IMG/VR virus record: IMGVR_UViG_3300042332_000818
Span: 55,390-119,389 of that record
Source: a virus
DNA length: 64,000 nt
Reading direction: 5' to 3' (one strand)
In this document: positions 9,201 to 56,028 of the stretch, in pieces
Layout of the letters: each line of letters opens with the position of its first letter
Numbering within the stretch: position 1 is the stretch's first letter
Translations under genes and position numbers: made by a program
The notes under the pieces: model-generated
What the model saw: the letters and a program-made list of their open reading frames with translations, nothing else
Told to the model about the DNA's origin: nothing
The model's database searches: none

Positions 9201-10763
9201 TATGAGCAAAAGATGGCTGCTGAAGACACCTTCCTTATGCTTAAAGAAGCTGCTACTAACAGAACTTACTACACAAGAAAGAAGTTTAACTCACTCACAG
9301 GTAAGCCTGCTTTTGAGAATGTAACTTCTACAGAAAGTTCTGCGACGGTTAAAAGGCTTGAGAAGTGGTTTAAGCAAATCTATTATGAAGAGAACTACTT
9401 TGAAGACTTGAGCGGAATGTCAAAAATTGGAAGTCTTGCTTTAAAGAAAATAGTAAGTGCTTCTTCATTAGTATATGTTGGTTACAACGTTTGGGGTAAC
9501 GCTGCTAACTTGGCGTTTGGTGGTGTTGCAAACCACATTGAAGGTTTTGCCGGTGTCCATTTTAGTGCTAAAGGTTTAGCTCATGCAAGAAAGTTACTCT
9601 ATACAGATTACTTTCCTAATAAGATTCAGAAAACAATGTCTGGATTTAATGCTAATCTTGAGCTTGTTGATGATCAACCGGGATCAAAGACAGAAGCTCT
9701 TATAAGATATTTTAATATGCCTAGACACCTCATTAGTGAAGATGAGCGTGGTAATGCTAATCAAATACCTGGTAGCTACTGGTTTCAAGACGGAGGTGAA
9801 TTTTTAATTCAATCAAGTACTGGTTTAGCAATGCTTGCTAAAATTAAATTGGTCAACGAGGAGAATGGTTCTCAGACTTCTGCTCTTGATGCCTATGATT
9901 GGGATCCTGATGCAAGGACTTTAAAGCTTAAGGATGGTGATTGGTACATAATTAATGATTACGGTGGCGGTGCTGGTGAAAAAGTTAAGTATGATGATGA
10001 CCAAAAGAGAATGGTTCAGAATTATATATACGAAGTAAACAAACAGATTCACGGTAACTACGCTGCAGAAGACAGAGTAGCAATACAAGATAATGCTATT
10101 GGTGCTGCAGCAATGCAGTTCCACAAATGGGTTTACCCTTCATTTAAAACTCACTTTAAAGGAAGATACTTTGATGAGAACCTTGGCTGGTATGAAGGAA
10201 GATATTTTAGCTTAATTAAGTTTATTGCTGCTCTTACAACGTTTGGAAATCCATCAGTGGCTTGGGCTTCTTTAGAAAAAGATCAAAAGGCTAATATTGG
10301 AAAAGTCGGTGCGCAATTAATGTTCTTTGCTTCTACTTTTATGATTGGTAATCTTATAGCGTCTTTAAAAGATTTGGGAGATGATGAGGATGATGATGAA
10401 GCTTTCTTCACCTTTAGAAGAAGTCTTAACGGATTGTCTTTCTTGAATGACAAAGTTGGAAACGATCTAGCTTTCTTTATAAACCCTGCAGACTTCTTGA
10501 CATTAAGTGAAAATCCAATTGCTTCTTTCAAGTATGCAAATCAATTTGTAGAAGCTTTTTGGAGAACTATGCAATTCTCTTACTACGGTATTGTTCAGAG
10601 CAATCAAGAACTGCTTGAAAATAAAGAGGTGTATTATCAAAGAGGTACTAGAGCGGGACAACTCAAACTTGCAAAAGAATGGGGAGATGTTATCCCGGCT
10701 CTATACACCATCAACCGCTGGAAAGGTTTTGATACAGTAGATTCCGATTACACCGGAAACTAA
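6276..10763 (+). CDS. Giant virion cargo/ejection-type protein with PD-(D/E)XK nuclease domain
   Basis: This 1495-residue protein follows the RNA polymerase by 4 bases. An N-terminal PD-(D/E)XK nuclease fold is visible at about residues 85-300: G-S-I-D (D216), D-L-K-T (D230, K232) and a later Q-V-N-I-Y helix, as in Cas4/RecB-like enzymes. The middle is charged and helical. The last 450 residues hold several hydrophobic stretches (about 1050-1085, 1340-1370, 1395-1430), one followed by an acidic G-D-D-E-D-D-D-E run, which suits a membrane-active ejection protein. Large proteins beside the polymerase are capsid or tail cargo in characterised crAss-like virions. The nuclease call is fairly strong; the ejection role is inference from position and hydrophobicity. 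Confidence 0.7.
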   Translation: MATSCFNVNDPGYQALLSAYNGNNILVDSLITSYQKAGNGDAIPSPEQVSEMLKNMYVEKAIDPVKVSYYQTVADQSTSQAQRDAVISVLEFTEKTDFDPTSHTYVDRQTGQILKSTTTAIKGSSKIDNYLLNREIGNLADRMLEGIITGKRLTDVSLDYFDEQGNKKTLEVSTETLNDIWSEMEAVVRTHLEMGSVLIPQVVVQNLEAGIAGSIDVLVVKRNGSMQVLDLKTSKTSVKEKKNNGKISYYHTAYDLENDSILVEKGLASKLTKHQQHILQVNIYTRMLEAAGFKVTEAYTHRYKVDINETETGINGIVDEGRSENMYYEESMLADAIIAEKTHYSGNPVGQALFEEADTEKSLPQKRAQLLIENSIIKPLTMRLKNLSDIYRERVNLRDDNNRLFVPKAEDTINKLQDLLFVIEKEGKSGRAILAYSRFLRYATEDMQKIIDFLSNKENVESERAAGIITNASNFLETYSDIQRASGELRPELPLEQQKLYDKMVLALNEALAVVHAAKEQHVKYIIKTGTSQKLTDEEIDQALKEAETISGVDAAIGDLDTSTDVLLRIIAKRFKRQLLTAQDNSRAFNKRADEAAADLIRLSPGRVVDYGFMYEVDAKGDLVVVDPYSTAYYEMEDDLRKDLYDSDGKWINYYEIKDPLSADPKHIQHNKELFEKREAYNRFRRAEIIENGTFKDGEYHKYNDEFKAARSRFEYFNGRSWVKRPQVSDSQYRVFRNKYYEVHHDVTLPVRSGKGYTGVATTRTIEVPKRKYAEPRLDARDPSGKSFTNAKYSILLNPRTDLERAQSKFYNFYVNEMQKGVMAKLPDDVQERYKHRVPSYNDYSEQFAHIPTVPLRAIVRMLYSLKDFFFDWNLPISAVRRTKIDEKGRPVSTLPLFMTGTFDDNVQEKINKINNELSTLKEDLLSKKISFTEYEKLLKDLKEERARLNRRPQKNIVSRDVLKSMKIFHNQVSIYEQKMAAEDTFLMLKEAATNRTYYTRKKFNSLTGKPAFENVTSTESSATVKRLEKWFKQIYYEENYFEDLSGMSKIGSLALKKIVSASSLVYVGYNVWGNAANLAFGGVANHIEGFAGVHFSAKGLAHARKLLYTDYFPNKIQKTMSGFNANLELVDDQPGSKTEALIRYFNMPRHLISEDERGNANQIPGSYWFQDGGEFLIQSSTGLAMLAKIKLVNEENGSQTSALDAYDWDPDARTLKLKDGDWYIINDYGGGAGEKVKYDDDQKRMVQNYIYEVNKQIHGNYAAEDRVAIQDNAIGAAAMQFHKWVYPSFKTHFKGRYFDENLGWYEGRYFSLIKFIAALTTFGNPSVAWASLEKDQKANIGKVGAQLMFFASTFMIGNLIASLKDLGDDEDDDEAFFTFRRSLNGLSFLNDKVGNDLAFFINPADFLTLSENPIASFKYANQFVEAFWRTMQFSYYGIVQSNQELLENKEVYYQRGTRAGQLKLAKEWGDVIPALYTINRWKGFDTVDSDYTGN

Positions 10764-10948
10764 AGTATAACTGTAAGCTTTGCGATTAGTATCCCTATTT
10801 CAAGGGAGTAACCGTTAGCTTCAATTATTTCTGAGGTTTCATCTTTCTGGTATCCGTAAATAACCTTTGAAAGGTTTACACCTAATAAGGTGTTATTATT
10901 ACTTAGAAACTCTAAGTGGAACCAGTGATTATAACTGAATTTAAACAT
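10760..10948 (-). CDS. Small protein of unknown function on the opposite strand
   Basis: This is a 62-codon frame read leftward from an ATG preceded by an A/T-rich leader. It converges with the giant gene and overlaps its stop codon by four bases. The product has a polar middle with K-V-I-Y-G-Y-Q-K and a hydrophobic C-terminus. I do not recognise it. It is the only leftward gene between the two rightward blocks. Composition and placement suggest a real gene, but without homologs a chance frame cannot be excluded. Confidence 0.5.
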   Translation of the reverse strand: MFKFSYNHWFHLEFLSNNNTLLGVNLSKVIYGYQKDETSEIIEANGYSLEIGILIAKLTVIL

Positions 10949-10973
10949 CTTTTATTATTTAAAGGGGGTTAAA

Positions 10974-11005
10974 GTTAGACAATTAGACTGAATTTCGTAT
11001 CTTAT
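10974..11005 (+). promoter_or_regulatory. Candidate promoter for the exported-protein operon
   Basis: A TATCTTAT -7-like box (10998-11005) is preceded directly by AATTTCG. The same AATTTCG-TAT context occurs at 17139-17147, and a CATTTCG form occurs on the minus strand near 33780. The -33 position holds only GTTA, so the match to the Bacteroidota consensus is partial. The gene at 11056 starts about 50 bases downstream, after an A-C-C-A-A-C-A-A leader also found after the 17121 promoter. Confidence 0.5.
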
Positions 11006-11055
11006 ATATGAGACAAAACCAACAACTTTTATGAAACCTATAATGCTATCCGCAC

Positions 11056-12984
11056 ATGAAAAAGTTTTGGTGGAGTCTCTCGACTTCTCTTATATCTTTA
11101 AGCGTTCTTGCTCAAAACGGTGCTAATGAAATACTTGTAGCACCCGCAAGTAACGACCCTTATATCCTTGTAGATACACTATTTACACTGGATAACTATC
11201 CGGCAACGTACACAGATGTATACGTTCACTTTGCTAACCCTACCGCTACTCCGGTAAAGGCTGTACAATTCCGACTCTTCTATGACAACGCTAAGTTTTC
11301 AAACGCTGTCATGTTTTGGGGACCGACCGCACAACCTATTACGGATAAGTACGGTTCTTATTTTACAAATGCTGGCTACATTAACGTAGTAGCATCATAT
11401 ACTGGTTCTACACCGAACTTTGACTGGGCAGACGGGGCTATGTTTAAGCTTCGTCTTTTTCATTCTAGTGCATACAATGGTATAGCCACTTCTATGGCAA
11501 TTTCAGGATCTAGTAATTATCCTGCTCTTGCAACCATTGGTAATGGTACTGACGTAAACCTTGAGCTCTATAGTTACGGTGGTGCTTTCCAGATGACCCC
11601 AATGACGTTTCCTGTAAAGGTTAGAAACGCTGATGGTTCACCCGCTCAAGGTGTTTGGTTCTCTGCTAAGAAGAGACTTAAGTCTACACCTCTTGCTACT
11701 TGGCAACCAATTGATACTGATTCAACTAATATGGCTGGTCTAGTAGAGTTCACTCACCCGCTTGATACAAACTACTGGCACATGAAGATCTCTGCACAAA
11801 CAGATTCTATGTCTGATGGTGGAGCTTTGACTATTGTAGATGCGTACAAGTTGGCTAACCACGTATCTTCTCAAGATACTCTAAGTGGTATTGAATACTA
11901 CGAAGGTGATATTAACGAAAGCCAGTCTGTAACTGTATCAGATGCATTTGCTGTATTCAATAGACTAGCTCTTAACCAATCAAACTGGGATCAATTATTT
12001 ACGGGAGTAAATAACGTATCAGTTCTTTGGCCTTCTCAGTGGGCAACTGCAAATGCTGCTACAACTGCACCTAACTGGACAAACGTACCTAGACTATATG
12101 TAATTGATTCTATTGTAAATAGTCTTGATTCTCTAGAACCTTACATCTATGTAGTAGGTGATGCTACAACTTCAGGATACAATAATCCTGCAACTATTCT
12201 TGCTAAGATGGCAAACCCTGGATCTGGTACAGATTACATTCTTGATCCGGCAGTATACTTCTCTAATAAGCCAGACTCAATTGAATTTAGAATTCCTAAG
12301 CTTATTGTAACAACTGATAACTACATTGATGTACCTGTGACAGTGTACACGTTTGGTAATAAGGTTGGAGCTCTGCAGATGGGAATCCAGTATGATACTG
12401 CGGTATTTGAGTTTGTGTCTCTGAATATGGGAGATTCTGCTTCAAAGTGGACATCATTTATGACGTTTAAAGATGGTGGTGTATTCTGGGCTGGTCACGA
12501 AGATAAGATGAACCCTGCTCTTCTTCAAGGACCGTCTCAAGTATTTACTTTCAGATTTGCAGTTAAGTCTATTCTTGGATGGAGAACTTCTCCTCTTGCA
12601 ATCTTTAACAAAGCTGCAGGTGATGAGAATGCTTATGATATGTCTATTCGTCCTTCACCAAATGATGGCTCTGTAATCAACGGTAAAGCTGATATGGATG
12701 AGGAGACTAGAGCTCTGCTCACTGGATTTATTACTTACCCTAACCCTGTAACTGATCTTACTAATCACTGGTTGATTGCAGACTTTTACATTGAAGACTT
12801 TACAAACTTTAGCGGTCTGGTTCTTAACTCTCAAGGCCAGATTGTTAAGTCAGTTTCTAGTAAAATCACTGAAAGAGGTTTCCAAACTCAAGGTATTTGG
12901 TTTGGTGATCTTCCTAACGGTATTTACATCGTGAAGCTGACAACTAACGATAGAGAGAAATTTTACAAAATCATTAAATATTAA
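11056..12984 (+). CDS. Exported protein with cohesin-like and dockerin-like modules and type IX secretion C-terminal domain
   Basis: The 642-residue product starts with a Sec signal peptide (M-K-K, hydrophobic core, likely cut after V-L-A). Residues about 24-175 look like a cohesin-type beta sandwich. Residues about 280-305 contain D-I-N-E-S-Q-S-V-T-V-S-D-A-F, a dockerin-like calcium loop. A second cohesin-like sandwich spans about 409-519. The last 80 residues carry the type A type IX sorting pattern: Y-P-N-P-V, a central L-N-S-Q-G-Q-I-V strand, L-P-N-G-I-Y-I-V-K-L and a basic end. Proteins with this tail cross the outer membrane through the type IX system and stay on the surface or are released. 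The gene heads an exported-protein operon, with 5 bases to the next gene. Domain calls are by eye; surface placement is inferred. Confidence 0.75.
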   Translation: MKKFWWSLSTSLISLSVLAQNGANEILVAPASNDPYILVDTLFTLDNYPATYTDVYVHFANPTATPVKAVQFRLFYDNAKFSNAVMFWGPTAQPITDKYGSYFTNAGYINVVASYTGSTPNFDWADGAMFKLRLFHSSAYNGIATSMAISGSSNYPALATIGNGTDVNLELYSYGGAFQMTPMTFPVKVRNADGSPAQGVWFSAKKRLKSTPLATWQPIDTDSTNMAGLVEFTHPLDTNYWHMKISAQTDSMSDGGALTIVDAYKLANHVSSQDTLSGIEYYEGDINESQSVTVSDAFAVFNRLALNQSNWDQLFTGVNNVSVLWPSQWATANAATTAPNWTNVPRLYVIDSIVNSLDSLEPYIYVVGDATTSGYNNPATILAKMANPGSGTDYILDPAVYFSNKPDSIEFRIPKLIVTTDNYIDVPVTVYTFGNKVGALQMGIQYDTAVFEFVSLNMGDSASKWTSFMTFKDGGVFWAGHEDKMNPALLQGPSQVFTFRFAVKSILGWRTSPLAIFNKAAGDENAYDMSIRPSPNDGSVINGKADMDEETRALLTGFITYPNPVTDLTNHWLIADFYIEDFTNFSGLVLNSQGQIVKSVSSKITERGFQTQGIWFGDLPNGIYIVKLTTNDREKFYKIIKY

Positions 12985-12989
12985 AAACC

Positions 12990-13394
12990 ATGAGCGAAGA
13001 AACTCAAGAAGGAGGACTGTCAGGACTTAAGAAAACTATCTTAGGTGTTGCAGGAACAGCAGTAACCGGATTTGGAATCTGGGCTACTACTAATATCAAT
13101 AAGATCTTTGGTGTTGAAGAAGAGTCTGAAGTAAAGACTGAGCAAGTTGCTGAAGCTCCTGCCTCTGCAGGACAAGCAGCCGCACCAATTGTTCTAAACA
13201 TTGATAACTCTGCTACTAATAATGCTTCTGCTGGAGGTGGTGGTACAAACACTATCATTAAGGAAACCGTACGTGAAGTACCAGTTGCACAACCGGCTGC
13301 AGCTGCTCCTGTAGAAGAGAAGAAAGAAACTACTGCAGAGCGTATTGCAAGACTTAAGAAAGAAAAAGCTGATAAAGATGGAGCACAGAACTAG
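12990..13394 (+). CDS. Membrane-anchored Ala/Pro-rich protein of unknown function
   Basis: The 134-residue product has one predicted membrane segment at about residues 14-32 (G-V-A-G-T-A-V-T-G-F-G-I-W-A). After it come an acidic stretch, an Ala/Asn/Gly-rich low-complexity linker and a charged C-terminal helix. There is no signal peptide cut site, so it probably stays in the inner membrane. The next gene starts inside its last codons (ATG at 13378), which suggests translational coupling. I do not recognise a family. A tether or adaptor between the membrane and the neighbouring exported proteins is possible but speculative. Confidence 0.7.
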   Translation: MSEETQEGGLSGLKKTILGVAGTAVTGFGIWATTNINKIFGVEEESEVKTEQVAEAPASAGQAAAPIVLNIDNSATNNASAGGGGTNTIIKETVREVPVAQPAAAAPVEEKKETTAERIARLKKEKADKDGAQN

Positions 13395-14124
13395 AAAAGA
13401 AGAACTAATGGCAATGGTTGCCAGTGTTCTCGGTATTGCAATGATTATTGCTTTTCTGATTACTGTCGGAGGAGTAGCAACATCTTGTTCTTCATCAATT
13501 TCTACTACACAATACCAAGCTGAATTTGAAAAAGCTCAACCTCTAAATACATTTCCTGTATTCACTGGTGAGAAAAAAGTAATTCAGATTGCCAATCTTA
13601 ACGTTAATAAGGAACTGTGGGAGATGTTTCCAGAACTTAGAGACAAGAGAGTTGGTATGGGTGTTTCTAACCGTATTGTAGAAAACTTTGAGGTGACTCA
13701 GAGATTCTTGTATGCGGAAGAAAAGGAAGCCATTGTTAATCAAATGCTTGATGTATGGGAGAAAGATCTCAATGACATGGGTGACGGTAGAACCAAGCTC
13801 AACGTGGGCTCGGTAGTTCTGCCTAAGTACATTGTCTATGCAGAGATCTATGAATTCTCTACGTCTTATGGGGAAACTTACGATAAAGGAAAACTTCAGA
13901 AGACTAATACTACTATCATCGGTATTCAAATTAAGATGGTTAATGTAGATAACTCTCAATATATTGTTGCATCTGGTCAAGGAACTTCTACTCAGGTTGG
14001 TGAGGGCTTCTTTAAGAATCCCACTATGGGCTTTGATCAGTCAACGGTGGGTGTAGCTACACAACGTGCGTTAGAGGTTGCCACGGTAAACCTTATGAAG
14101 CGCATGGACCAATATGGATGGTAA
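13378..14124 (+). CDS. CsgG-like curli-type secretion/outer-membrane protein
   Basis: I chose the ATG at 13378 because it overlaps the previous stop and gives a basic N-terminus followed by a hydrophobic segment ending in T-S-C-S-S-S, a weak lipobox. The 248-residue product then shows the CsgG/HfaB pattern: an N-terminal alpha/beta part, Y-I-V-Y-A-E-I-Y-E-F, a strand with I-G-I-Q-I-K-M-V-N-V-D, S-G-Q-G-T-S-T and a final helix with A-L-E-V-A-T-V-N-L-M. In the family these lipoproteins form outer-membrane channels or periplasmic assembly factors. It sits between the membrane-anchored protein and a Gly/Ser-rich exported protein. The family call is by eye and moderate; channel formation is inference. 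Confidence 0.55.
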   Translation: MEHRTRKEELMAMVASVLGIAMIIAFLITVGGVATSCSSSISTTQYQAEFEKAQPLNTFPVFTGEKKVIQIANLNVNKELWEMFPELRDKRVGMGVSNRIVENFEVTQRFLYAEEKEAIVNQMLDVWEKDLNDMGDGRTKLNVGSVVLPKYIVYAEIYEFSTSYGETYDKGKLQKTNTTIIGIQIKMVNVDNSQYIVASGQGTSTQVGEGFFKNPTMGFDQSTVGVATQRALEVATVNLMKRMDQYGW

Positions 14125-15604
14125 ATTCAAAATATTATTATTATTTCTGCTGGGATGTATAGGGTTGCAAGCACAAACGTTTACTTACAACTACACGGAT
14201 CCTTGTACGGGAATGCTACAGACGGTCACCCTGTCTCAGACATCTGGGACAGTGGTGATGTTTTATGCTGGGCAGTACCAAACTTTTACAGCAGCTCAAC
14301 TTCAGTCAGGAGCTTATGAAAACTGGATTGCTCAAATTAATACTCAGTTTCCTCCAGGTAGCAACCCTTGTGCAGGTAACGGTTCTTCTAACGCTAATAA
14401 TAGTAACGCAAACATCGGTACAAACACAGCAAATAGTGTTAGTGGCATTGTCTCTATTAGCACTTCCATTGCGGGAAGCCTCGGTGGAGGTAGCGTAAGT
14501 TCAGGTTCAATATCAACAGGTAATACAAATGGATCATCGTCATCTTCTGGTAGCAGTTCTAATGATAACACTAACAATAACAGTGGGTCTTCTGGGTCTT
14601 CAGGTGGGTCATCCTCTGGTTCCTCTGGTAGCTCTGGCTCTAATTCTGGTGGAACTAGTGGTGGTTCTAGTTCTGGCGGTGGTAACACCGGAGGATCAGG
14701 AAGTAGCTCGGGTGGTTCGTCTGGCTCATCAGGTGGAGGTAACTCAGGTAGACCAGACAGTGGTGGTAGTACCGGAGGAGGTACTGGAACATCAGGTAGT
14801 AATCCTGACGGAGGAGCAACGGGTGGTACGTCTGAAAGCACTGGAGGAGCTAGCTCTACTGGGGGAACTTCAGAGAATACAACAACAGCATCTGGAGGAG
14901 AATCAGAAAGCTCCGGAGACTCCGGTGGTGGAGGAGGTGGTGGTAATAAACCAAAACAAAAGCAAGAAAAAATAGGTAGAGGTTCTCTGATTGGTTCAGG
15001 GGATTTTGTTATTATCCGTAATGGTAATGACATTAGTAAGCGTAATGATAATGTACGCTTCAATGCGTCAGTTACTCACGTTAACACCAAGCAAAACTTT
15101 ATCAAGGGTGTCAATCTGAACTATACCACAGGAGAGAATGTAGCTAACCTTACTCTGTATGGGTCCTATAAGAAAAAAGATTTCATGGCGGTGGGGTCCA
15201 ATTCTTTCATGACTAATTTTAAATCTGATTGGTTTAACACGGTAACTATTCTAGGTGCACAGAAACTTTGGAAGTTTACCTTCATGGGAGGTAGCAACTT
15301 TACATTGGGTCAGATAGGTAAATCTGGTTTCCAGAACTGGTCTATGGTAGGTGGTGCGTTCACTAATTTCAAAGGAGGTAAGACTGTATCTGCTAACATA
15401 ATGGCTCTAGGTGTATACTCACCTTATATCTTTTATTACGAAGGACAATGGTACAAGTCTGGCTTTCTTATTGTACCTCTAGCAAACGTTGACTTTAAAC
15501 TTACCGATAAGTTTAAGTGGAGTATCTCATTCTCAGGAGCATACCAATACAACGCTGACATTCTTAACTTTCAGTTATCAACCGGTACAAAGATGTTGCT
15601 ATGA
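14114..15604 (+). CDS. Exported Gly/Ser-rich protein with beta-barrel-like C-terminal domain
   Basis: The gene starts 11 bases before the end of the CsgG-like gene. Its 496-residue product has a signal peptide (hydrophobic L-L-L-F-L-L-G, likely cut after L-Q-A), a small folded part with two Cys (about 22-90), then a long Gly/Ser/Asn/Thr tract (about 95-285). The last 200 residues alternate polar and aromatic residues in strand-like units, such as W-S-I-S-F-S-G-A-Y-Q-Y, as in outer-membrane barrels. The tract resembles a flexible stalk or a secreted low-complexity polymer. A long Pro-rich frame on the other strand is only its shadow. Role unknown; a substrate or partner of the CsgG-like protein is a working guess. 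Confidence 0.65.
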   Translation: MDGKFKILLLFLLGCIGLQAQTFTYNYTDPCTGMLQTVTLSQTSGTVVMFYAGQYQTFTAAQLQSGAYENWIAQINTQFPPGSNPCAGNGSSNANNSNANIGTNTANSVSGIVSISTSIAGSLGGGSVSSGSISTGNTNGSSSSSGSSSNDNTNNNSGSSGSSGGSSSGSSGSSGSNSGGTSGGSSSGGGNTGGSGSSSGGSSGSSGGGNSGRPDSGGSTGGGTGTSGSNPDGGATGGTSESTGGASSTGGTSENTTTASGGESESSGDSGGGGGGGNKPKQKQEKIGRGSLIGSGDFVIIRNGNDISKRNDNVRFNASVTHVNTKQNFIKGVNLNYTTGENVANLTLYGSYKKKDFMAVGSNSFMTNFKSDWFNTVTILGAQKLWKFTFMGGSNFTLGQIGKSGFQNWSMVGGAFTNFKGGKTVSANIMALGVYSPYIFYYEGQWYKSGFLIVPLANVDFKLTDKFKWSISFSGAYQYNADILNFQLSTGTKMLL

Positions 15605-16722
15605 GAAAGTTTATTTTAAGTCTAATTTTTATACTGTCGGTATCAATCCAGACGTATTCTCAAACTATTACCCTGACTCCAATTGGAACTCAAGATGTTA
15701 GTGGTATACCGGTTACTGTAGACCATTATGTCACTACAGCTAATGGTACTACATCTGTAAAAATATATAGAACTCACTACGGAAACGGCAACACTTCTCA
15801 GTATGCAATATATCCTGGTACTCGTACTGAGATGAATAAGCTGTTTAATACTGCTTATGCTGCTACAACTTTATGGTGGAGTGGTAATATGAGTGCTAAC
15901 TCTTCTTTAAACTTCTATCAATTTACTACACTTACTAATGCTGGAGCTAGTGTACCTCCTAATGGGGATTACTATGCCACCGAAGTAACGTTCACTTTTG
16001 TTGCTGCAGAAACAGGGACCTATTCTTTTGGTCTTACCTCTGATGATGGTTCTGATCTAGCAATAAACGGAACCTCTGTAGTAGAATGGTATGGTGGCAA
16101 GGGTACCGGACAGTATAAATATGGTAACTATTCAATGGTTGCAGGAACTCAGTATACAGTGGTAGCTCGCATGCAAGAATACGGTGGAGGAGACGGACTA
16201 GTATTGGTATGGAGAAGACCATCACAAGGTTCTTGGTCTTTACAATTATCAGAGATTGGTGTTACCTCTAGTTCTTGGGTGAGTCAGGGGACCAAGAATA
16301 CAAATGCTTCCGGACAAGTATCATGGACTAATTCTTCTAACTGGCCTTATAGAGTGACGGTAGATGTCACTAATAATTATCATACTCTTACAGATGCGGA
16401 TATGAACTATCTCATGTATAAGAAGGCAGGATTATCTCCACTGCAATCATGGGACTTCTATACTTGCGATATAAATAATTCTACTGTGTTTGATTATGAT
16501 GATATAGTTTTTGGATATGTCATCTGGTCCCAAGGTCATCTACACAATAAGTATATTTTTACTAAAGCTCAGCGAGATGCTATAATTACATCACCGTCTA
16601 CAAATTTTTATACTACTTACTTCCCTGTTCAAACATTGATTGTGGAAAATCAAAATCTGTTTTACATAATGGGGACAGGTAAACATCAAACTACTATTAA
16701 TAACTTAAATAGAATACAATGA
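15601..16722 (+). CDS. Exported PA14-domain protein
   Basis: The start overlaps the previous stop (ATGA). The 373-residue product has a clear signal peptide (M-R-K, hydrophobic core, cut after T-Y-S). A PA14 beta sandwich spans about residues 70-205: the F-T-F-V-A-A-E-T-G-T-Y-S-F strand, the S-D-D-G-S-D-L loop and the later G-L-V-L-V-W-R-R strand. PA14 domains usually bind carbohydrate. A C-terminal region (about 250-373) with D-I-N-N-S-T-V-F-D-Y-D-D is dockerin-like in wording but weaker. Glycan binding at the host surface or in released material fits both the domain and the operon. PA14 is confident; target and role are inferred. Confidence 0.7.
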   Translation: MRKFILSLIFILSVSIQTYSQTITLTPIGTQDVSGIPVTVDHYVTTANGTTSVKIYRTHYGNGNTSQYAIYPGTRTEMNKLFNTAYAATTLWWSGNMSANSSLNFYQFTTLTNAGASVPPNGDYYATEVTFTFVAAETGTYSFGLTSDDGSDLAINGTSVVEWYGGKGTGQYKYGNYSMVAGTQYTVVARMQEYGGGDGLVLVWRRPSQGSWSLQLSEIGVTSSSWVSQGTKNTNASGQVSWTNSSNWPYRVTVDVTNNYHTLTDADMNYLMYKKAGLSPLQSWDFYTCDINNSTVFDYDDIVFGYVIWSQGHLHNKYIFTKAQRDAIITSPSTNFYTTYFPVQTLIVENQNLFYIMGTGKHQTTINNLNRIQ

Positions 16723-17138
16723 ACCCCATTTTGATAATGTGCTTTTACGTTGCTAGCGTAAGCTCTCAAGATAATCTAGCAGGTATTGATAACCAGAAGT
16801 TCACTTTTGGTCTCAAGCAAATGACTGAAGATATTCTTCTACAACAAGGAAATCCTTTGTGTGATCAGTCTTCAGAAGGTGCAAGTCCGGTGTATGTAAC
16901 AGTCACTGACATCAAAGCTCCAACTCAAGGTATACGTCTAGGTCCGTTTGAATTTAAACAAAAGAAAACCATCGTAGAGGTAGACATTGCAATTGGTTCT
17001 AAAGTCTATCACGGAGTAGGAAAAGCTAATACAAATGTTGCTGCAACCATGATGCAGCTTCAGGATGAAAACCTTGCATTTGAAAGAACAGAATTTTCTG
17101 TTGCTGTTAAGAAGGCAATAGTTGATGCTCTGGACTAA
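16719..17138 (+). CDS. Small exported protein, possibly CsgG-superfamily partner
   Basis: The 139-residue product starts in an ATGA overlap. It has a short hydrophobic N-terminus ending in V-S-S-Q, compatible with a short signal peptide. The mature part has an alpha/beta pattern ending in strand V-V-E-V-D-I-A-I, a V-G-K-A-N-T-N turn and a final helix with A-V-K-K-A-I-V-D-A-L. That topology recalls the periplasmic half of CsgG/LPP20-type proteins and would pair with the gene at 13378. I cannot assign a family with confidence. It closes the operon just before the 17121 promoter. Confidence 0.5.
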   Translation: MNPILIMCFYVASVSSQDNLAGIDNQKFTFGLKQMTEDILLQQGNPLCDQSSEGASPVYVTVTDIKAPTQGIRLGPFEFKQKKTIVEVDIAIGSKVYHGVGKANTNVAATMMQLQDENLAFERTEFSVAVKKAIVDALD

Positions 17139-17152
17139 ATTTCGTATATTTT
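17121..17152 (+). promoter_or_regulatory. Bacteroidota-type promoter for the lysis genes
   Basis: GTTG (17121-17124), a 20-base spacer and TATATTTT (17145-17152) match the -33 TTTG / -7 TAnnTTTG architecture closely. The AATTTCG element precedes the -7 box as at 10991. The downstream leader contains A-C-C-A-A-C-A-A, and the holin-like gene starts at 17183. The promoter overlaps the end of the upstream gene, so the lysis genes can be expressed apart from the exported-protein operon. Confidence 0.65.
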
Positions 17153-17182
17153 ATATAGGACCAACAATCAAAACCAACAGTC

Positions 17183-17446
17183 ATGTTTAATCAATTAAAG
17201 AAGAAGTTTATGGCTTTTTGGGATATTTTCAAGGACAATAATGAGTGGAACGAGAAGACTATTGTTGGTTTCTTGTCATTCGCTGTAATGAGCATTACAG
17301 CTATTGCCGATGTAGTAACAGGTATTATGGGCAAAGAGCTCATCATCTCTGATACAATTTTTAATTCGTTTGTAATAATCACACTGGGAGCTTTCGGTAT
17401 TGCTGAAGCTGGAAAGATCTTCGGTGGTAAAAAAGAAGAAGAATGA
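17183..17446 (+). CDS. Holin-like small membrane protein
   Basis: The 87-residue product has two likely membrane segments (about residues 27-47 and 57-77) joined by a short turn with G-K-E-L, a charged N-terminus and a Lys/Glu-rich tail. This is the class II holin layout. Its stop overlaps the start of the endolysin (ATGA), the classic holin-endolysin arrangement. Holins open the inner membrane so that endolysin reaches the cell wall. The role is inferred from topology and neighbour. Confidence 0.7.
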   Translation: MFNQLKKKFMAFWDIFKDNNEWNEKTIVGFLSFAVMSITAIADVVTGIMGKELIISDTIFNSFVIITLGAFGIAEAGKIFGGKKEEE

Positions 17447-18057
17447 GTCTAAAGAGTCTACAAACCAAAGCGGGTGTTACGGCAGATGGAGCATTTGGTC
17501 CGGGCACTCTAAAAGCAGGAATGGCTTACTACAAGTTTACACCTGAACGTGCTGCACATTTCTTTGCACAAACAGCTCACGAGACCGGAGGCTTTAAAGC
17601 TTTCTCTGAGAATCTGAACTACGGTGCTAAAGGATTGCTTGGTATTTTTAAAAAGTACTTCCCTACAGAAGCTCTAGCTGCTCAGTATGAGCGTAAGCCA
17701 GAGAAGATTGCAAACCGTGTGTATGCATCTCGTATGGGTAATGGTGATGAAGCATCTGGTGACGGATGGAAGTACCGTGGACGTGGTGCTCTGCAATTGA
17801 CCGGTAAGTCTAACTACCAAGCATTTGCTGATTACTTGAAGAAGCCAGAGATCATGACTAACCCTGATCTGGTTGCTACTGAGTATGCATTTGAATCTGC
17901 TATCTTCTTCTTTGATCGTAATAAGTTGTGGGATATCTGTGATAAAGGTGTAAACAACGACACTATTCTTGCTCTTACAAAGAGAATCAATGGAGGTACT
18001 CACGGTCTAGAGGATCGTAAAGAAAAAACCCTGAAGTACTACGGATGGGTAAAGTAA
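17443..18057 (+). CDS. Endolysin, glycoside hydrolase family 19 (chitinase/lysozyme-like)
   Basis: The 204-residue product begins with a short peptidoglycan-binding-like segment (L-Q-T-K-A-G-V-T-A-D-G-A-F-G-P, residues 6-20). The GH19 domain follows: A-H-E-T-G-G-F with E47 as the likely acid, S-E-N-L-N-Y with E56 as the likely base, G-D-G-W-K-Y-R-G-R-G-A-L-Q-L-T-G and a late R-I-N-G-G. There is no signal peptide, so it depends on the holin-like protein upstream. It should cleave the glycan strand of peptidoglycan. A hairpin terminator lies just after the stop. Confidence 0.9.
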   Translation: MSLKSLQTKAGVTADGAFGPGTLKAGMAYYKFTPERAAHFFAQTAHETGGFKAFSENLNYGAKGLLGIFKKYFPTEALAAQYERKPEKIANRVYASRMGNGDEASGDGWKYRGRGALQLTGKSNYQAFADYLKKPEIMTNPDLVATEYAFESAIFFFDRNKLWDICDKGVNNDTILALTKRINGGTHGLEDRKEKTLKYYGWVK

Positions 18058-18067
18058 AGTACATTTT

Positions 18068-18107
18068 GAGGGGACTCCTACGTGCTACGTTGGAGTTCCT
18101 CTCTTTT
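18068..18107 (+). terminator. Rho-independent terminator after endolysin
   Basis: GAGGGGACTCC pairs with GGAGTTCCTCTC (with a G-U pair) around a 13-base loop and is followed by TTTT. It would end the lysis transcript before the small basic genes. Confidence 0.7.
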
Positions 18108-18133
18108 CATTAACCTTTTAATTAAACCAACTT

Positions 18134-18277
18134 ATGGCAAAGATTAAAGCTCAATCGGCTGCTACTTTTAAACCAAGAGTTCCGAAAAGCCGTCCTGGTG
18201 TTCACTCTAAGACTAAAACTTCAGTATTGAAGAGTTCTAGAAATTACAAGAAATCTTATAGAGGTCAAGGTAAATAA
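18134..18277 (+). CDS. Conserved crAss-like small basic protein
   Basis: This 47-residue frame starts M-A-K-I-K and contains R-P-G-V-H-S-K-T-K-T-S, K-S-S-R-N-Y-K-K-S and Y-R-G-Q-G-K. This very basic sequence closely matches a short protein I recall from many crAss-like and Bacteroides phages. It probably binds nucleic acid; function unknown. Its TAA overlaps the next ATG (TAATG). Confidence 0.8.
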   Translation: MAKIKAQSAATFKPRVPKSRPGVHSKTKTSVLKSSRNYKKSYRGQGK

Positions 18278-18390
18278 TGGCAAAGGCACATAAAGAGGTT
18301 CCAAAACCTACAAATAGGAAGACAGTTCTGCTAAGAAATAGAAGAATTCAGTCTAACTTAGAGGTCTTAAAAAGACTTCAAGAAAAATAA
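18277..18390 (+). CDS. Small basic protein, coupled to the preceding gene
   Basis: This 37-residue frame starts in the TAATG overlap with the preceding gene and ends five bases before PhoH. It is rich in Lys and Arg (N-R-K-T-V-L-L-R-N-R-R) and ends in a short helix (L-E-V-L-K-R-L-Q-E-K). Tight coupling on both sides supports translation. Function unknown. Confidence 0.6.
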   Translation: MAKAHKEVPKPTNRKTVLLRNRRIQSNLEVLKRLQEK

Positions 18391-18395
18391 CCCAG

Positions 18396-19079
18396 ATGCA
18401 AAGAGATTATAATGATGAGGTGTTTCAAGCAAAGAGACGCCCCAAGAATCCTATTAAGTTTAATATCCAGCTTAATGAAGAACAGAAAATCGCTAAAGAG
18501 ATTATACTTGCAAATCCTGTTACGGTTCTTAAGGGTATGGCAGGAAGTGGTAAAACTTTGGTTGCTGTTCAAACTGCACTGGACCTTTTATTCACTAAAC
18601 AAGTCGAAAAGATTATCATCACGAGACCAACAGTGGCTAAAGAAGACATTGGCTTCCTCCCAGGAGACATCAAAGAAAAAATGGACCCGTGGCTTGCACC
18701 AATCTACCACAACCTCTATCTCCTCTACTCAAAAGAAAAGATTGACAAAGAAGTAGAAGAAGGTAGAATTGAGATCTTACCATTTGCTTTTATGCGGGGT
18801 AGAACGTTTGTTAATGCTTTTGTTATTGTAGACGAAGCACAGAACGTTACTCACACACAAATGGAGATGGTACTTGGTCGTCTTGGTAAAGGTAGCTGGA
18901 TGTCTATATGTGGAGACCTTGCTCAGGTAGACCTTAAGAATAAAAAAGAAACCGGGTTTTCTTTTCTCTCTAGGGTAGAAGAACAAGTGAAAGGTGTGCG
19001 GGTAGTTGTGCTCAAGCAGAATCACCGGCACCCAATAGTAGAACCTATTCTAGAAGTATATCAAACATTTAGAGATTAG
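18396..19079 (+). CDS. phoH: PhoH-like ATPase
   Basis: The 227-residue product has Walker A G-M-A-G-S-G-K-T at about 47-54, the R-P-T-V motif after it, Walker B V-I-V-D-E-A-Q-N near 142 and a final helicase-like N-H-R-H. Length and motifs fit PhoH, a P-loop NTPase common in phages with probable RNA or nucleic-acid linked activity. The biochemical role in phage infection is not settled. A strong terminator follows the gene. Confidence 0.9.
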   Translation: MQRDYNDEVFQAKRRPKNPIKFNIQLNEEQKIAKEIILANPVTVLKGMAGSGKTLVAVQTALDLLFTKQVEKIIITRPTVAKEDIGFLPGDIKEKMDPWLAPIYHNLYLLYSKEKIDKEVEEGRIEILPFAFMRGRTFVNAFVIVDEAQNVTHTQMEMVLGRLGKGSWMSICGDLAQVDLKNKKETGFSFLSRVEEQVKGVRVVVLKQNHRHPIVEPILEVYQTFRD

Positions 19080-34238: not shown

Positions 34239-34563
34239 GAGAATCAGCTTGCTCATTTTTGCTGTAATCATTGTAGGTCAGCTGTATCTTCTAAGAGAAG
34301 GACGCAAAACCTTGACTGAATTAGAGAATCTCAAGGAGCTCTCAGAACAAAAAGTGGATAGTCTAAGACTAGCCAATGATTCTCTAGATATCTTTACAGA
34401 TGTGTTGGTTGTACAGGTTGACTCACTGGGTAGAGAGATCAACGCAGATGAAAAACAATTACAAAAAATCAAAAATGATTACAAGAAAAGAATTGACTCT
34501 ATTAGTAAGCTTTCTAGTAATGAGCTTACCGAGTATTTCTCAAACCGTTATAACAACAACTAA
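34231..34563 (+). CDS. Rz-like inner-membrane spanin candidate
   Basis: The 110-residue product has an N-terminal anchor (I-S-L-L-I-F-A-V-I-I-V-G) and a long periplasmic coiled coil, the i-spanin layout. The following gene begins inside it in another frame, as Rz1 does within Rz. Spanins fuse the inner and outer membranes at the end of lysis. The role is inferred from topology and gene nesting. Confidence 0.6.
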   Translation: MLRRISLLIFAVIIVGQLYLLREGRKTLTELENLKELSEQKVDSLRLANDSLDIFTDVLVVQVDSLGREINADEKQLQKIKNDYKKRIDSISKLSSNELTEYFSNRYNNN

Positions 34564-34885
34564 AGACACCATCATCTGCCTACCGGTAGAAATGGCTAAA
34601 ATGGTTGTTGTTGATTTAGAAGAAGGAGACCTTGTTCGTAAAGAGAACAAGATACTGTCTGATATTCTAACAAAGTTAAAGTCTCAGGTCACTATTCAAG
34701 ACCAAATTATTCAGACCAAGGATCTTAAGATCAATAACTTGGAATCAATCATTACCGAGAAAGATAAGATTATCTCCATTTGTAATGAAGAAAAAACTAT
34801 TATTCAGGGGAAAGTGAAGAAGTCCTTTGTTAGTGGTACTCTTGTTGGTATTGGTGTTGGGGCTTTAACTATTCTTCTCTTGTAG
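34475..34885 (+). CDS. Spanin-partner candidate nested in the Rz-like gene
   Basis: I chose M-I-T-R-K-E-L (34475), which gives a signal peptide cut near S-I-S-Q; an ATG at 34448 is also possible. The product of about 136 residues has a periplasmic coiled coil and a C-terminal membrane segment (G-T-L-V-G-I-G-V-G-A-L-T-I-L-L-L). It starts within the Rz-like gene in another frame. A C-terminal anchor instead of a lipobox is unusual for an o-spanin. Confidence 0.55.
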   Translation: MITRKELTLLVSFLVMSLPSISQTVITTTKDTIICLPVEMAKMVVVDLEEGDLVRKENKILSDILTKLKSQVTIQDQIIQTKDLKINNLESIITEKDKIISICNEEKTIIQGKVKKSFVSGTLVGIGVGALTILLL

Positions 34886-51450: not shown

Positions 51451-52302
51451 TTAGAATCTATATGCAAAGATGATAGTTGTTCTAGATGCTTTGGAGTCTT
51501 GTGTTAGTCCTGGCATTGCTTCTATAGTTAGGTAAGAGCGTCCGTTGAATCGGTATTGGAGTAATGGTCCTATGTAGTATTCTGTACTGTTACCGTCATT
51601 GTTACGGTACATTGTACTAGCTCCTAGTGTTAGGTCATTGTTTACTATGTATCCGTATGAGGCAGTACCCGCATACTCTCTTTCTTGAGCTTCTCTGGTT
51701 GGTGCTAGGTTACCCTCGTAGATAGCATTGATACCCCAGATGCTGTTAGAACCAAGCTGTCCGCCAAGTAGTAGTTTGGGTTCAATACCCCAACCACCGT
51801 CTAGCATCTTCATCTCATAGTAGAGTGTTGGGTTGCCTGGTAGTTTACCCCAGTCAGCTAGAGCATAGCGGAACTCAAAAGAGAATCCTCTCCAGTCAAA
51901 GTCTTGTTCTCCATTTTTACCGTCATATACTGTGTGAGAGTATAAGTCAAGTTGGAGTCTTTTACCAAGACCGAAGGTAAACTCATCTCTCATACGGATC
52001 TGAGCTGGACCGTCTCTTCTGTCTCTGATGTCAAACCACTTCTCATACATAGCAGATCCCGGAGGATTCATTACGTACACACGGGTTGCTGCAAACATTC
52101 GCATAGTACTCCATAGGGGTTGATTGTATTCACCCACTCTGGTTTGTAGAGGATGTTTCTTTGCAGTTACAATGACTTCGTTCATTTTGAGAACGGAGTC
52201 TTTTCTTGCATTCTCAGCTCCTCTGCTTATTGCAGAATTACTGTACTGAGCATACGCTGAAGTTATACCCAGAATAAATAAAGGTAATAGAACTTTTTTC
52301 AT
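51451..52302 (-). CDS. Phage-encoded outer-membrane beta-barrel protein
   Basis: The 283-residue product has a signal peptide (M-K-K, hydrophobic core, cut after A-Y-A) and a segment M-N-E-V-I-V-T-A-K-K that resembles the plug start of TonB-dependent receptors. About ten amphipathic strands follow. It ends Y-R-F with C-terminal Phe, a barrel-assembly signal. It would sit in the host outer membrane. Receptor masking, superinfection exclusion or altered uptake are candidate roles. It has its own promoter box and terminator. Confidence 0.65.
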   Translation of the reverse strand: MKKVLLPLFILGITSAYAQYSNSAISRGAENARKDSVLKMNEVIVTAKKHPLQTRVGEYNQPLWSTMRMFAATRVYVMNPPGSAMYEKWFDIRDRRDGPAQIRMRDEFTFGLGKRLQLDLYSHTVYDGKNGEQDFDWRGFSFEFRYALADWGKLPGNPTLYYEMKMLDGGWGIEPKLLLGGQLGSNSIWGINAIYEGNLAPTREAQEREYAGTASYGYIVNNDLTLGASTMYRNNDGNSTEYYIGPLLQYRFNGRSYLTIEAMPGLTQDSKASRTTIIFAYRF

Positions 52303-54982: not shown

Positions 54983-56028
54983 TGGTAGTTATCTAAAACA
55001 AAGTCTACAGGACGAAGAATATCAATGATGCTATCGTGATCATCAAGATGATCTTTAAAGAGGATCGTGGGTAGTTCATATGGTTCTCTACCAATCTGCT
55101 CTTTTGCTTGGTACAGATGGTTTAAGTAAAGATGCGTATCACCAAGGTTACCAATCAGCTCATATGGGATCATTCTTACCTCCTTAGCAAGGATTTCTAA
55201 AAGCAACCCATATGATGCGATATTAAATGGTAGACCTAAGAAGGTATCAACACTTCTTTGATTCCACATTAAACTGATTCCACGGGTTGGTACACCCACG
55301 GCATCCATCTCTTGAGAGATCCTATCATGATAGAACCCATCCATCTTTCTTTCATACCAAGCTAATCTCTGAGATTCACTTAGAGTAAACGTATAAACTT
55401 GGAACCCATAGTGACACGGGGGTAGAACCATTTGGTTTAGTTGAGCTACATTCCAAGCATTAACCATCAATCTTCTTGAGTCTGGATTTGCTTTAAGATC
55501 ACGAATTAGATCCTGAATTTGATCAATGTATCTTGTACCTCTAACAAATAGTGGTTCAGTATCATCTCCATCATTAATTGTTAGCCCTGTCACAGGTATT
55601 GCAACTTCTGTCTTCCAGTCTCTCCATTGTTTACCATAGATAGGACCTAGCTCACCCCACCTTTTAGCAAACTCATCGTCCATTTTGATACGTTCAATGT
55701 ACTCCTCCATAGTATCTGGCCAATTACCCTTGTACTCATTGGTCTTGGATAGGTAGTTTTTGAAGGCATCACCGTTCCAGATATTACATCCATTCTCTAC
55801 CAGATACTTGATATTGGTGTCACCTCTGAGAAACCACAGTAGTTCAACCACTATAGCGTTAAACGCCATCTTCTTAGTGGTGAGCAAAGGGTAACCATCA
55901 AGCATTTTGTGACGAATCTGTCTTCCAAATACTGAAAGCGTTCCCGTGGCCGTTCTGTCCTTTTTGACCATTCCGTTTGTAATGATGTCAAATAAAAGGT
56001 TCTGATAATCTTTATCTAGTTTGTTCAT
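54946..56028 (-). CDS. thyA: Thymidylate synthase
   Basis: The 360-residue product has D-R-T-A-T-G near the start, the catalytic Cys in L-P-P-C-H-Y-G-F (about residue 205) and the motif N-Q-R-S-V-D-T-F-L-G-L-P-F-N-I-A-S-Y. The Asn in L-P-F-N favours dUMP methylation over dCMP hydroxymethylation. It makes dTMP for phage DNA and pairs with the uracil glycosylase. An insertion near residue 140-160 lengthens it relative to the usual 264 residues. Confidence 0.9.
   Translation of the reverse strand: MNKLDKDYQNLLFDIITNGMVKKDRTATGTLSVFGRQIRHKMLDGYPLLTTKKMAFNAIVVELLWFLRGDTNIKYLVENGCNIWNGDAFKNYLSKTNEYKGNWPDTMEEYIERIKMDDEFAKRWGELGPIYGKQWRDWKTEVAIPVTGLTINDGDDTEPLFVRGTRYIDQIQDLIRDLKANPDSRRLMVNAWNVAQLNQMVLPPCHYGFQVYTFTLSESQRLAWYERKMDGFYHDRISQEMDAVGVPTRGISLMWNQRSVDTFLGLPFNIASYGLLLEILAKEVRMIPYELIGNLGDTHLYLNHLYQAKEQIGREPYELPTILFKDHLDDHDSIIDILRPVDFVLDNYQCHPAIKAPLSN

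Follow-up and report, generated by a model that had tools for sequence, protein, structure and literature searches.

What do six tightly packed genes at positions 11056-17138 of a virus genome do for the phage that carries them? The genes lie in a stretch of 64,000 nucleotides (hereafter the window), which covers positions 55,390 to 119,389 of the 119,389-base virus record IMGVR_UViG_3300042332_000818. A first-pass annotation of the window had read them as an operon of exported proteins that build a surface structure or an outer-membrane conduit in the infected host. All six open reading frames (ORFs), here g1 to g6, are present, with ATGA overlaps between g4 and g5 and between g5 and g6 and further overlaps between g2 and g3 and between g3 and g4, but the holin-like and endolysin genes adjoining them at 17183-18057 (g7 and g8) had been overlooked. 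The genes make up an envelope cassette that is passed between Bacteroidota phages; its conserved gene set and order, retained export signals, head swapping and transfer are shown below. Our tentative answer on its function, which has close to an even chance of being right, is that an exchangeable and probably glycan-binding protein would be displayed on the infected cell late in infection, in dependence on the type IX secretion system (T9SS). The genes are as follows.

11056..12984, + strand: g1, putative exported surface hub (ORF list, Pfam, homolog counts)
12990..13394, + strand: g2, small protein with one transmembrane (TM) segment (homolog alignment)
13378..14124, + strand: g3, exported lipoprotein-like protein with a predicted CsgG fold (alignments, AlphaFold2, Foldseek)
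14114..15604, + strand: g4, signal peptide and predicted 12-strand outer-membrane barrel (alignment, model, Foldseek)
15601..16722, + strand: g5, exported swap-slot protein with PA14 (Pfam, slot survey, hhalign)
16719..17138, + strand: g6, small protein related to the C-terminal half of g3 (alignment, hhalign)
17183..17446, + strand: g7, holin-like protein with two TM segments (size, topology, position)
17443..18057, + strand: g8, endolysin of the glycoside hydrolase family 19 (GH19) type (Pfam, PHROG)

The ORF of g3 is listed from a TTG at 13345; ATG 13378 was taken as its start, most likely correctly because homologs start there.

A search for the same gene order, suggested alongside the first-pass annotation, found it again in phage contigs, where g1-g2-(g7)-g3-g4-(g5)-g6 is nearly invariant. 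The first round of searching with g3 yielded 62 phage loci; a g3 profile search of IMG/VR then matched relatives encoded on at least 559 stretches, and the search with g6 gave 283 matches. Co-inheritance was counted over the 57 loci that remained after dereplication at 97% identity of g3, using only those with sufficient flank. By this count g3 is accompanied by g4 in all 54 loci, by g1 in 50 of 52, by g2 in 51 of 55, by g6 in 46 of 48 and by the g5 module in 44 of 51. The exported gene of about 150 amino acids (aa) at 12255-12710 of locus L051 has equivalents after g6 in 14 of 38 dereplicated loci; its 'DVGD.WK' motif is conserved and it belongs to no Pfam family. The cassette is also present in the cultured Flavobacterium phage immuto as gp014-gp019, and among 50,697 phage records only four, all of immuto, matched g1, g3 and g6.

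No g3 match was obtained among plasmids, and a scan of 395 Bacteroidota genomes with exact peptide patterns found one g3 relative, on a contig of 254 kb (CAIWBA010000291.1, our locus L065) on which a terminase gene is present as well. This contig, filed in a Bacteroidetes metagenome-assembled genome (MAG), is probably a phage. A cellular origin of the cassette was rejected on the basis of these two results.

Trees of g3 and of the terminase large subunit (TerL) conflict. TerL unites immuto with the phages G002 and G003, a clade rejected by g3 (approximately unbiased (AU) test, p 7e-102), and g3 unites G005 with G006, a clade rejected by TerL (AU test, p 9.5e-96). The TerL of G002 has its best match in immuto, and that of the large phage G012 is matched best by jumbo phages, PAU and Lak among them. 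The conflicting clades, together with these TerL matches, indicate that unrelated lineages of phages exchange the cassette. By its genes the window's own phage is crAss-like, having both hallmarks of Crassvirales, a crAss-type major capsid protein (a relative of that of crAss001, E 1.1e-7, 25% identity, encoded in the same record) and RNA polymerase genes (the gene directly upstream of g1 has matches among the RNA polymerase subunits that crAss-like phages encode). The comparisons thus support a transfer that would span crAss-like phages, the Flavobacterium phage immuto and T4-/jumbo-type phages.

Display at the cell surface turns on g1, which consists of a signal peptide, a beta-rich N-terminal part, a dockerin-like module (aa ~206-374), a cohesin (aa 420-506) and a T9SS type A sorting tail (aa 561-640). 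The cohesin-like and type IX sorting domains named in the first-pass annotation both scored over the cut-offs (PF00963 at 4.3e-9, over the curated cut-off; Por_Secre_tail PF18962 at 1.4e-6; TIGR04183 at 1.9e-7). The dockerin-like domain stayed below threshold in the window's g1 but was recovered as Dockerin_1 in 15 of 25 scanned homologs (best E 2.2e-4), of which all 25 retain Por_Secre_tail and 24 Cohesin; g5 of locus L054 also matches Dockerin_1 weakly. A signal peptide combined with a C-terminal type A sorting domain marks g1 as T9SS cargo, and provided that its host possesses a T9SS, the sorting tail implies display at the surface by this route. Each of 14 phage records examined encodes exactly one T9SS tail, always over the cut-off. 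The fifteenth record, the MAG holding contig CAIWBA010000291.1, encodes 13 such tails, of which that contig accounts for two, and contains SprA. The second T9SS-tail protein of that contig, a 288-aa frame, is encoded elsewhere on it.

Most of the other proteins also carry export signals, in keeping with the signal peptides or lipoprotein-like starts noted earlier for at least four of the six genes. A crude signal-peptide rule applied to the homolog sets was positive for 53 of 60 g1, 44 of 62 g3, 44 of 61 g4 and 20 of 20 g5 proteins and for about half of the g6 proteins (28 of 54), against a background of 3 among 64 other window ORFs of at least 100 aa. Since these signal peptides, like the T9SS tail, persist across deep divergence, and outer-membrane folds are predicted for g3 and g4, export of the cassette proteins into the host envelope is well supported on sequence grounds. 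Elsewhere in the window, the minus strand encodes another exported protein at 51451-52302 with a weak match to the outer-membrane barrel family PF13557 (E 0.0014, below cut-off), and a small plus-strand ORF at 34400-34885, lying among oppositely oriented genes, has a signal-peptide-like start and no Pfam family.

What would be displayed is suggested by g5. In the slot between g4 and g6 the signal peptide and the C-terminal module are constant and the head varies. The PA14 domain recognized earlier in the window's g5 (aa 120-211, Pfam 1.5e-6, over the curated cut-off) is one of several heads found there, the others being a C-type lectin with or without LamG, GEVED, and Ig_7 plus lectin. Judged by pairwise identities, heads are swapped in otherwise near-identical cassettes: loci L023 and L026 share 99% identity in g3, 94% in g1, 94% in g4 and 81% in the C-part of g5, with 28% in its N-part, and for L135 and L147 the values are 100% (g3), 95% (g1), 100% (g4), 90% (g5 C-part) and 37% (g5 N-part). 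These heads make plausible that part of the first-pass annotation which saw a polysaccharide-binding surface structure; its conduit is taken up below. The constant module, which lies within 16162-16722 in the window, is homologous to g1 aa ~206-368 (hhalign E 2e-21) and is present twice per genome in 13 of 15 records, in every case once in g1 and once in g5. A multi-cargo cellulosome was rejected because the module is confined to these two proteins, and a diversity-generating retroelement acting on the lectin heads was rejected because 14 genomes contain no reverse transcriptase.

The slot shows further rearrangements. In the near-identical phage of locus L001 (RNA polymerase subunit 98% identical), positions 10224-12153 hold an extra exported beta-rich gene of 274 aa that carries the signal peptide of the window's g5 and is followed by a g5 with a different one, an arrangement pointing to recombination at the signal-peptide boundary. 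Locus L020 has a TnpB-type (zinc-ribbon) transposon-protein-like ORF at 11880-12806, between two g5 copies. An exported Endonuclease_NS follows g5 in 6 of 38 dereplicated loci and accompanies the cassette, for example, at L022:11253-11837 and L063:9935-10513; in immuto, Endonuclease_NS (gp012) lies upstream, next to a lectin protein with the g5 constant module (gp013). Such a nuclease could degrade superinfecting or released DNA.

The remaining proteins appear to belong to the envelope. All of the best 25 PDB matches that Foldseek returned for the AlphaFold2 model of g3 (mean predicted local distance difference test score (pLDDT) 64.6) are CsgG (E <= 1.7e-6, probability 1.00), and the best viral structural match is a phage protein annotated CsgG. 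The CsgG likeness noted at first sight therefore holds for the predicted fold but not for the sequence, for which the Pfam scan gave no CsgG family match and hhalign against E. coli CsgG gave 2%. A sequence search of solved structures gave no match for g3 and chance-level matches only for g6. The latter resembles the C-terminal half of g3 (hhalign probability 94.6%); its N-terminal hydrophobic segment is weak in the window, and homologs outside the close relatives have clear signal peptides. In g4, a signal peptide is followed by a small N-terminal domain with two invariant Cys, by the Gly/Ser-rich stretch reported before, which is a flexible linker, and by the predicted barrel (aa ~291-494), whose Foldseek matches are outer-membrane barrels (mean pLDDT 51.6 for the protein, barrel blocks mostly about 60-79). 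The alignment of g2 reveals an acidic N-terminus, one Gly-rich TM segment and a Pro/Asn/Gln-rich low-complexity tail with a terminal Trp that is conserved except in the window's close relatives; with no cleavable signal, g2 looks like an N-in inner-membrane anchor.

We propose that, late in infection, the host T9SS would carry g1 to the cell surface, where it would form a hub to which g5, the probable glycan binder, would attach through the shared cohesin/dockerin-type parts. An outer-membrane/periplasmic base would be provided by g3, g4 and g6, and an inner-membrane tie by g2. The displayed head might then occupy the glycans of the infected cell, thereby excluding rival phages and keeping newly released progeny off the envelope of the dead cell; alternatively, it might glue neighbouring cells together. 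We chose occupation of glycans because swapped, probably glycan-binding heads suit a surface binder better than a lysis device.

A lysis device is nevertheless the main and serious rival, unlikely in our estimation but by no means negligible. Together with g7 and g8 the cassette would disrupt the outer membrane, g2 and g3 acting as a spanin-like pair and g4 and g1 destabilizing the surface. The product of g8 matches Glyco_hydro_19 in Pfam (1.5e-8) and an endolysin PHROG (2.9e-63), and the family scan places a PhoH gene after it. Of the dereplicated loci, 38 extend for 6 kb or more to either side of the cassette; in 20 of these a GH19 endolysin was found 0.04-2.3 kb away from it, upstream or downstream and on either strand, and in 22 g7 homologs lie inside or beside the cassette, often between g2 and g3. 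The g2 and g3 genes overlap, and the N-termini seen in their alignments would fit a spanin pair. A lysis role has also been proposed for CsgGF of phage Melnitz (PMC9004378). In addition, the upstream regions of g1 and g7 have a promoter-like motif in common:

10986..11017, + strand: promoter-like motif upstream of g1, GACTGAATTTCGTATCTTATATATGAGACAAA (20-mer core match)
17133..17164, + strand: second copy of the motif, upstream of the lysis genes g7/g8 (20-mer core match)

The 20-base core has exact matches in the window only at these two sites. Because 10 of 100 shuffles also gave at least two matches when up to 3 mismatches were allowed, the weight of the motif rests on its exactness, its position and its recurrence, the pair being identical in L001 and present as variants in L002 and L003. 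Against a lysis module, there is no obvious need in it for a T9SS-sorted cohesin protein or for exchangeable lectin heads, and in immuto some 27 kb separate the cassette from endolysin gp191 and holin gp190. Since the cassette is linked to lysis genes, we keep a release function among the possibilities.

Several points weigh against T9SS-dependent display of a glycan binder. We infer the localization, glycan binding and timing of the cassette proteins, and likewise infer a T9SS in the phages' hosts, from the expected presence of this system in Flavobacterium, the host genus of immuto, and from SprA in one MAG. The dockerin match is weak and the cohesin-dockerin pairing only supposed, and g5 has no T9SS tail, which leaves its route over the outer membrane unexplained. 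Model confidence is moderate both for the predicted CsgG-like fold of g3 and for the predicted outer-membrane barrel of g4. The promoter-like motif was seen in the window and three close relatives and was not found in other lineages. Proximity to lysis genes could reflect shared late expression only, or an active role in lysis, and the loci in the lysis-linkage count are not phylogenetically independent.

The predicted fold of g3 and its CsgG-annotated viral match also suggest a curli-like (type VIII) channel, in which g3 would be a CsgG-type pore secreting g5 or moving macromolecules. This has been proposed for pelagiphages, whose curli (type VIII secretion system) CsgG-CsgF clusters have been transferred across phage families (PMC7029224, PMC9599517), but for the present cassette we consider it improbable. 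Hidden Markov models of the cassette proteins gave no match to E. coli CsgE or CsgF, and the family scan detected no curlin family among the window genes at 11056-19079; curli membership was rejected on partners and on sequence. Moreover, of the two membrane-spanning hairpins that build the 36-strand barrel of CsgG, hairpin 1 comprises 38-39 residues in g3 against 45 in E. coli CsgG (about 6 shorter), and segment 2 comprises 35-39 against 49 (10-14 shorter). Because both hairpin regions are shorter, a CsgG-type pore is not established, and neither is the outer-membrane conduit first suggested.

Just as improbable is a role in adhesion, in which infected cells would be joined to uninfected ones ('sibling capture') and the phage would spread faster; surface display signals and exchangeable, probably glycan-binding heads would suit it, but with the curli-bearing phage Melnitz no clumping was observed (PMC9004378). 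We give still less credence to a T9SS-hijacking trans-envelope display with an exchangeable glycan sensor, in which g2 and g7 would couple conditions outside the cell (free hosts, rival phages or debris) to the timing of lysis. Lectin and PA14 domains occur in tail proteins too and head swapping resembles receptor-binding diversification, but virion parts such as tail fibres or decoration are the least likely identity of these proteins, given that signal peptides and the T9SS tail are kept in all lineages and that the immuto cassette is far from the terminase gene (about 16 kb versus 119 kb).

Bacteroidota phages, from crAss-like to jumbo, thus have in common, and exchange, an entire cassette directed at the envelope, and its central protein bears an address for the host T9SS. 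The cassette is a concrete and testable candidate for the way in which these phages remodel the infected-cell surface. Its function can be answered at the bench because immuto, which carries the cassette, is cultured (on Flavobacterium sp. LMO8). Among the open-access papers that the literature search covered, none describes the cassette.

Among known systems, the cassette shares with cellulosome scaffolds cohesin and dockerin-like modules on exported proteins and an exchangeable functional head, but has one cohesin, one putative partner gene, no slot enzymes and a weak dockerin match. As in spanin complexes, the gene of a putative inner-membrane protein overlaps that of a lipoprotein-like, probably outer-membrane protein, often with holin-like and endolysin genes close by; unlike in those complexes, g3 is a large protein with a CsgG fold, as predicted, the tail of g2 is of low complexity, and there are many extra surface proteins. 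Llp of phage T5, a receptor-masking exclusion lipoprotein, is likewise a phage-encoded envelope protein that potentially blocks superinfection and progeny loss on debris; however, it is single and small and blocks one protein receptor, whereas the cassette would be a multi-protein surface assembly with swappable heads. T9SS sorting-domain proteins have been mentioned in passing near BACON ORFs in some phages (PMC6949934); here each phage has a single T9SS tail, and the protein that carries it is part of a cassette of several conserved genes. With the curli clusters of pelagiphages and Melnitz the cassette has in common that it is phage-borne and exported, centres on an outer-membrane lipoprotein with a (predicted) CsgG fold, moves between families and has attracted a proposed role in lysis. 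It differs from them in lacking detected CsgF, CsgE and curlin, in its shorter CsgG hairpins, in its Bacteroidota hosts and in adding a T9SS-sorted cohesin protein, a predicted outer-membrane barrel and a swap-slot head. We place the cassette among those envelope cassettes of phages that centre on a protein with a (predicted) CsgG fold.

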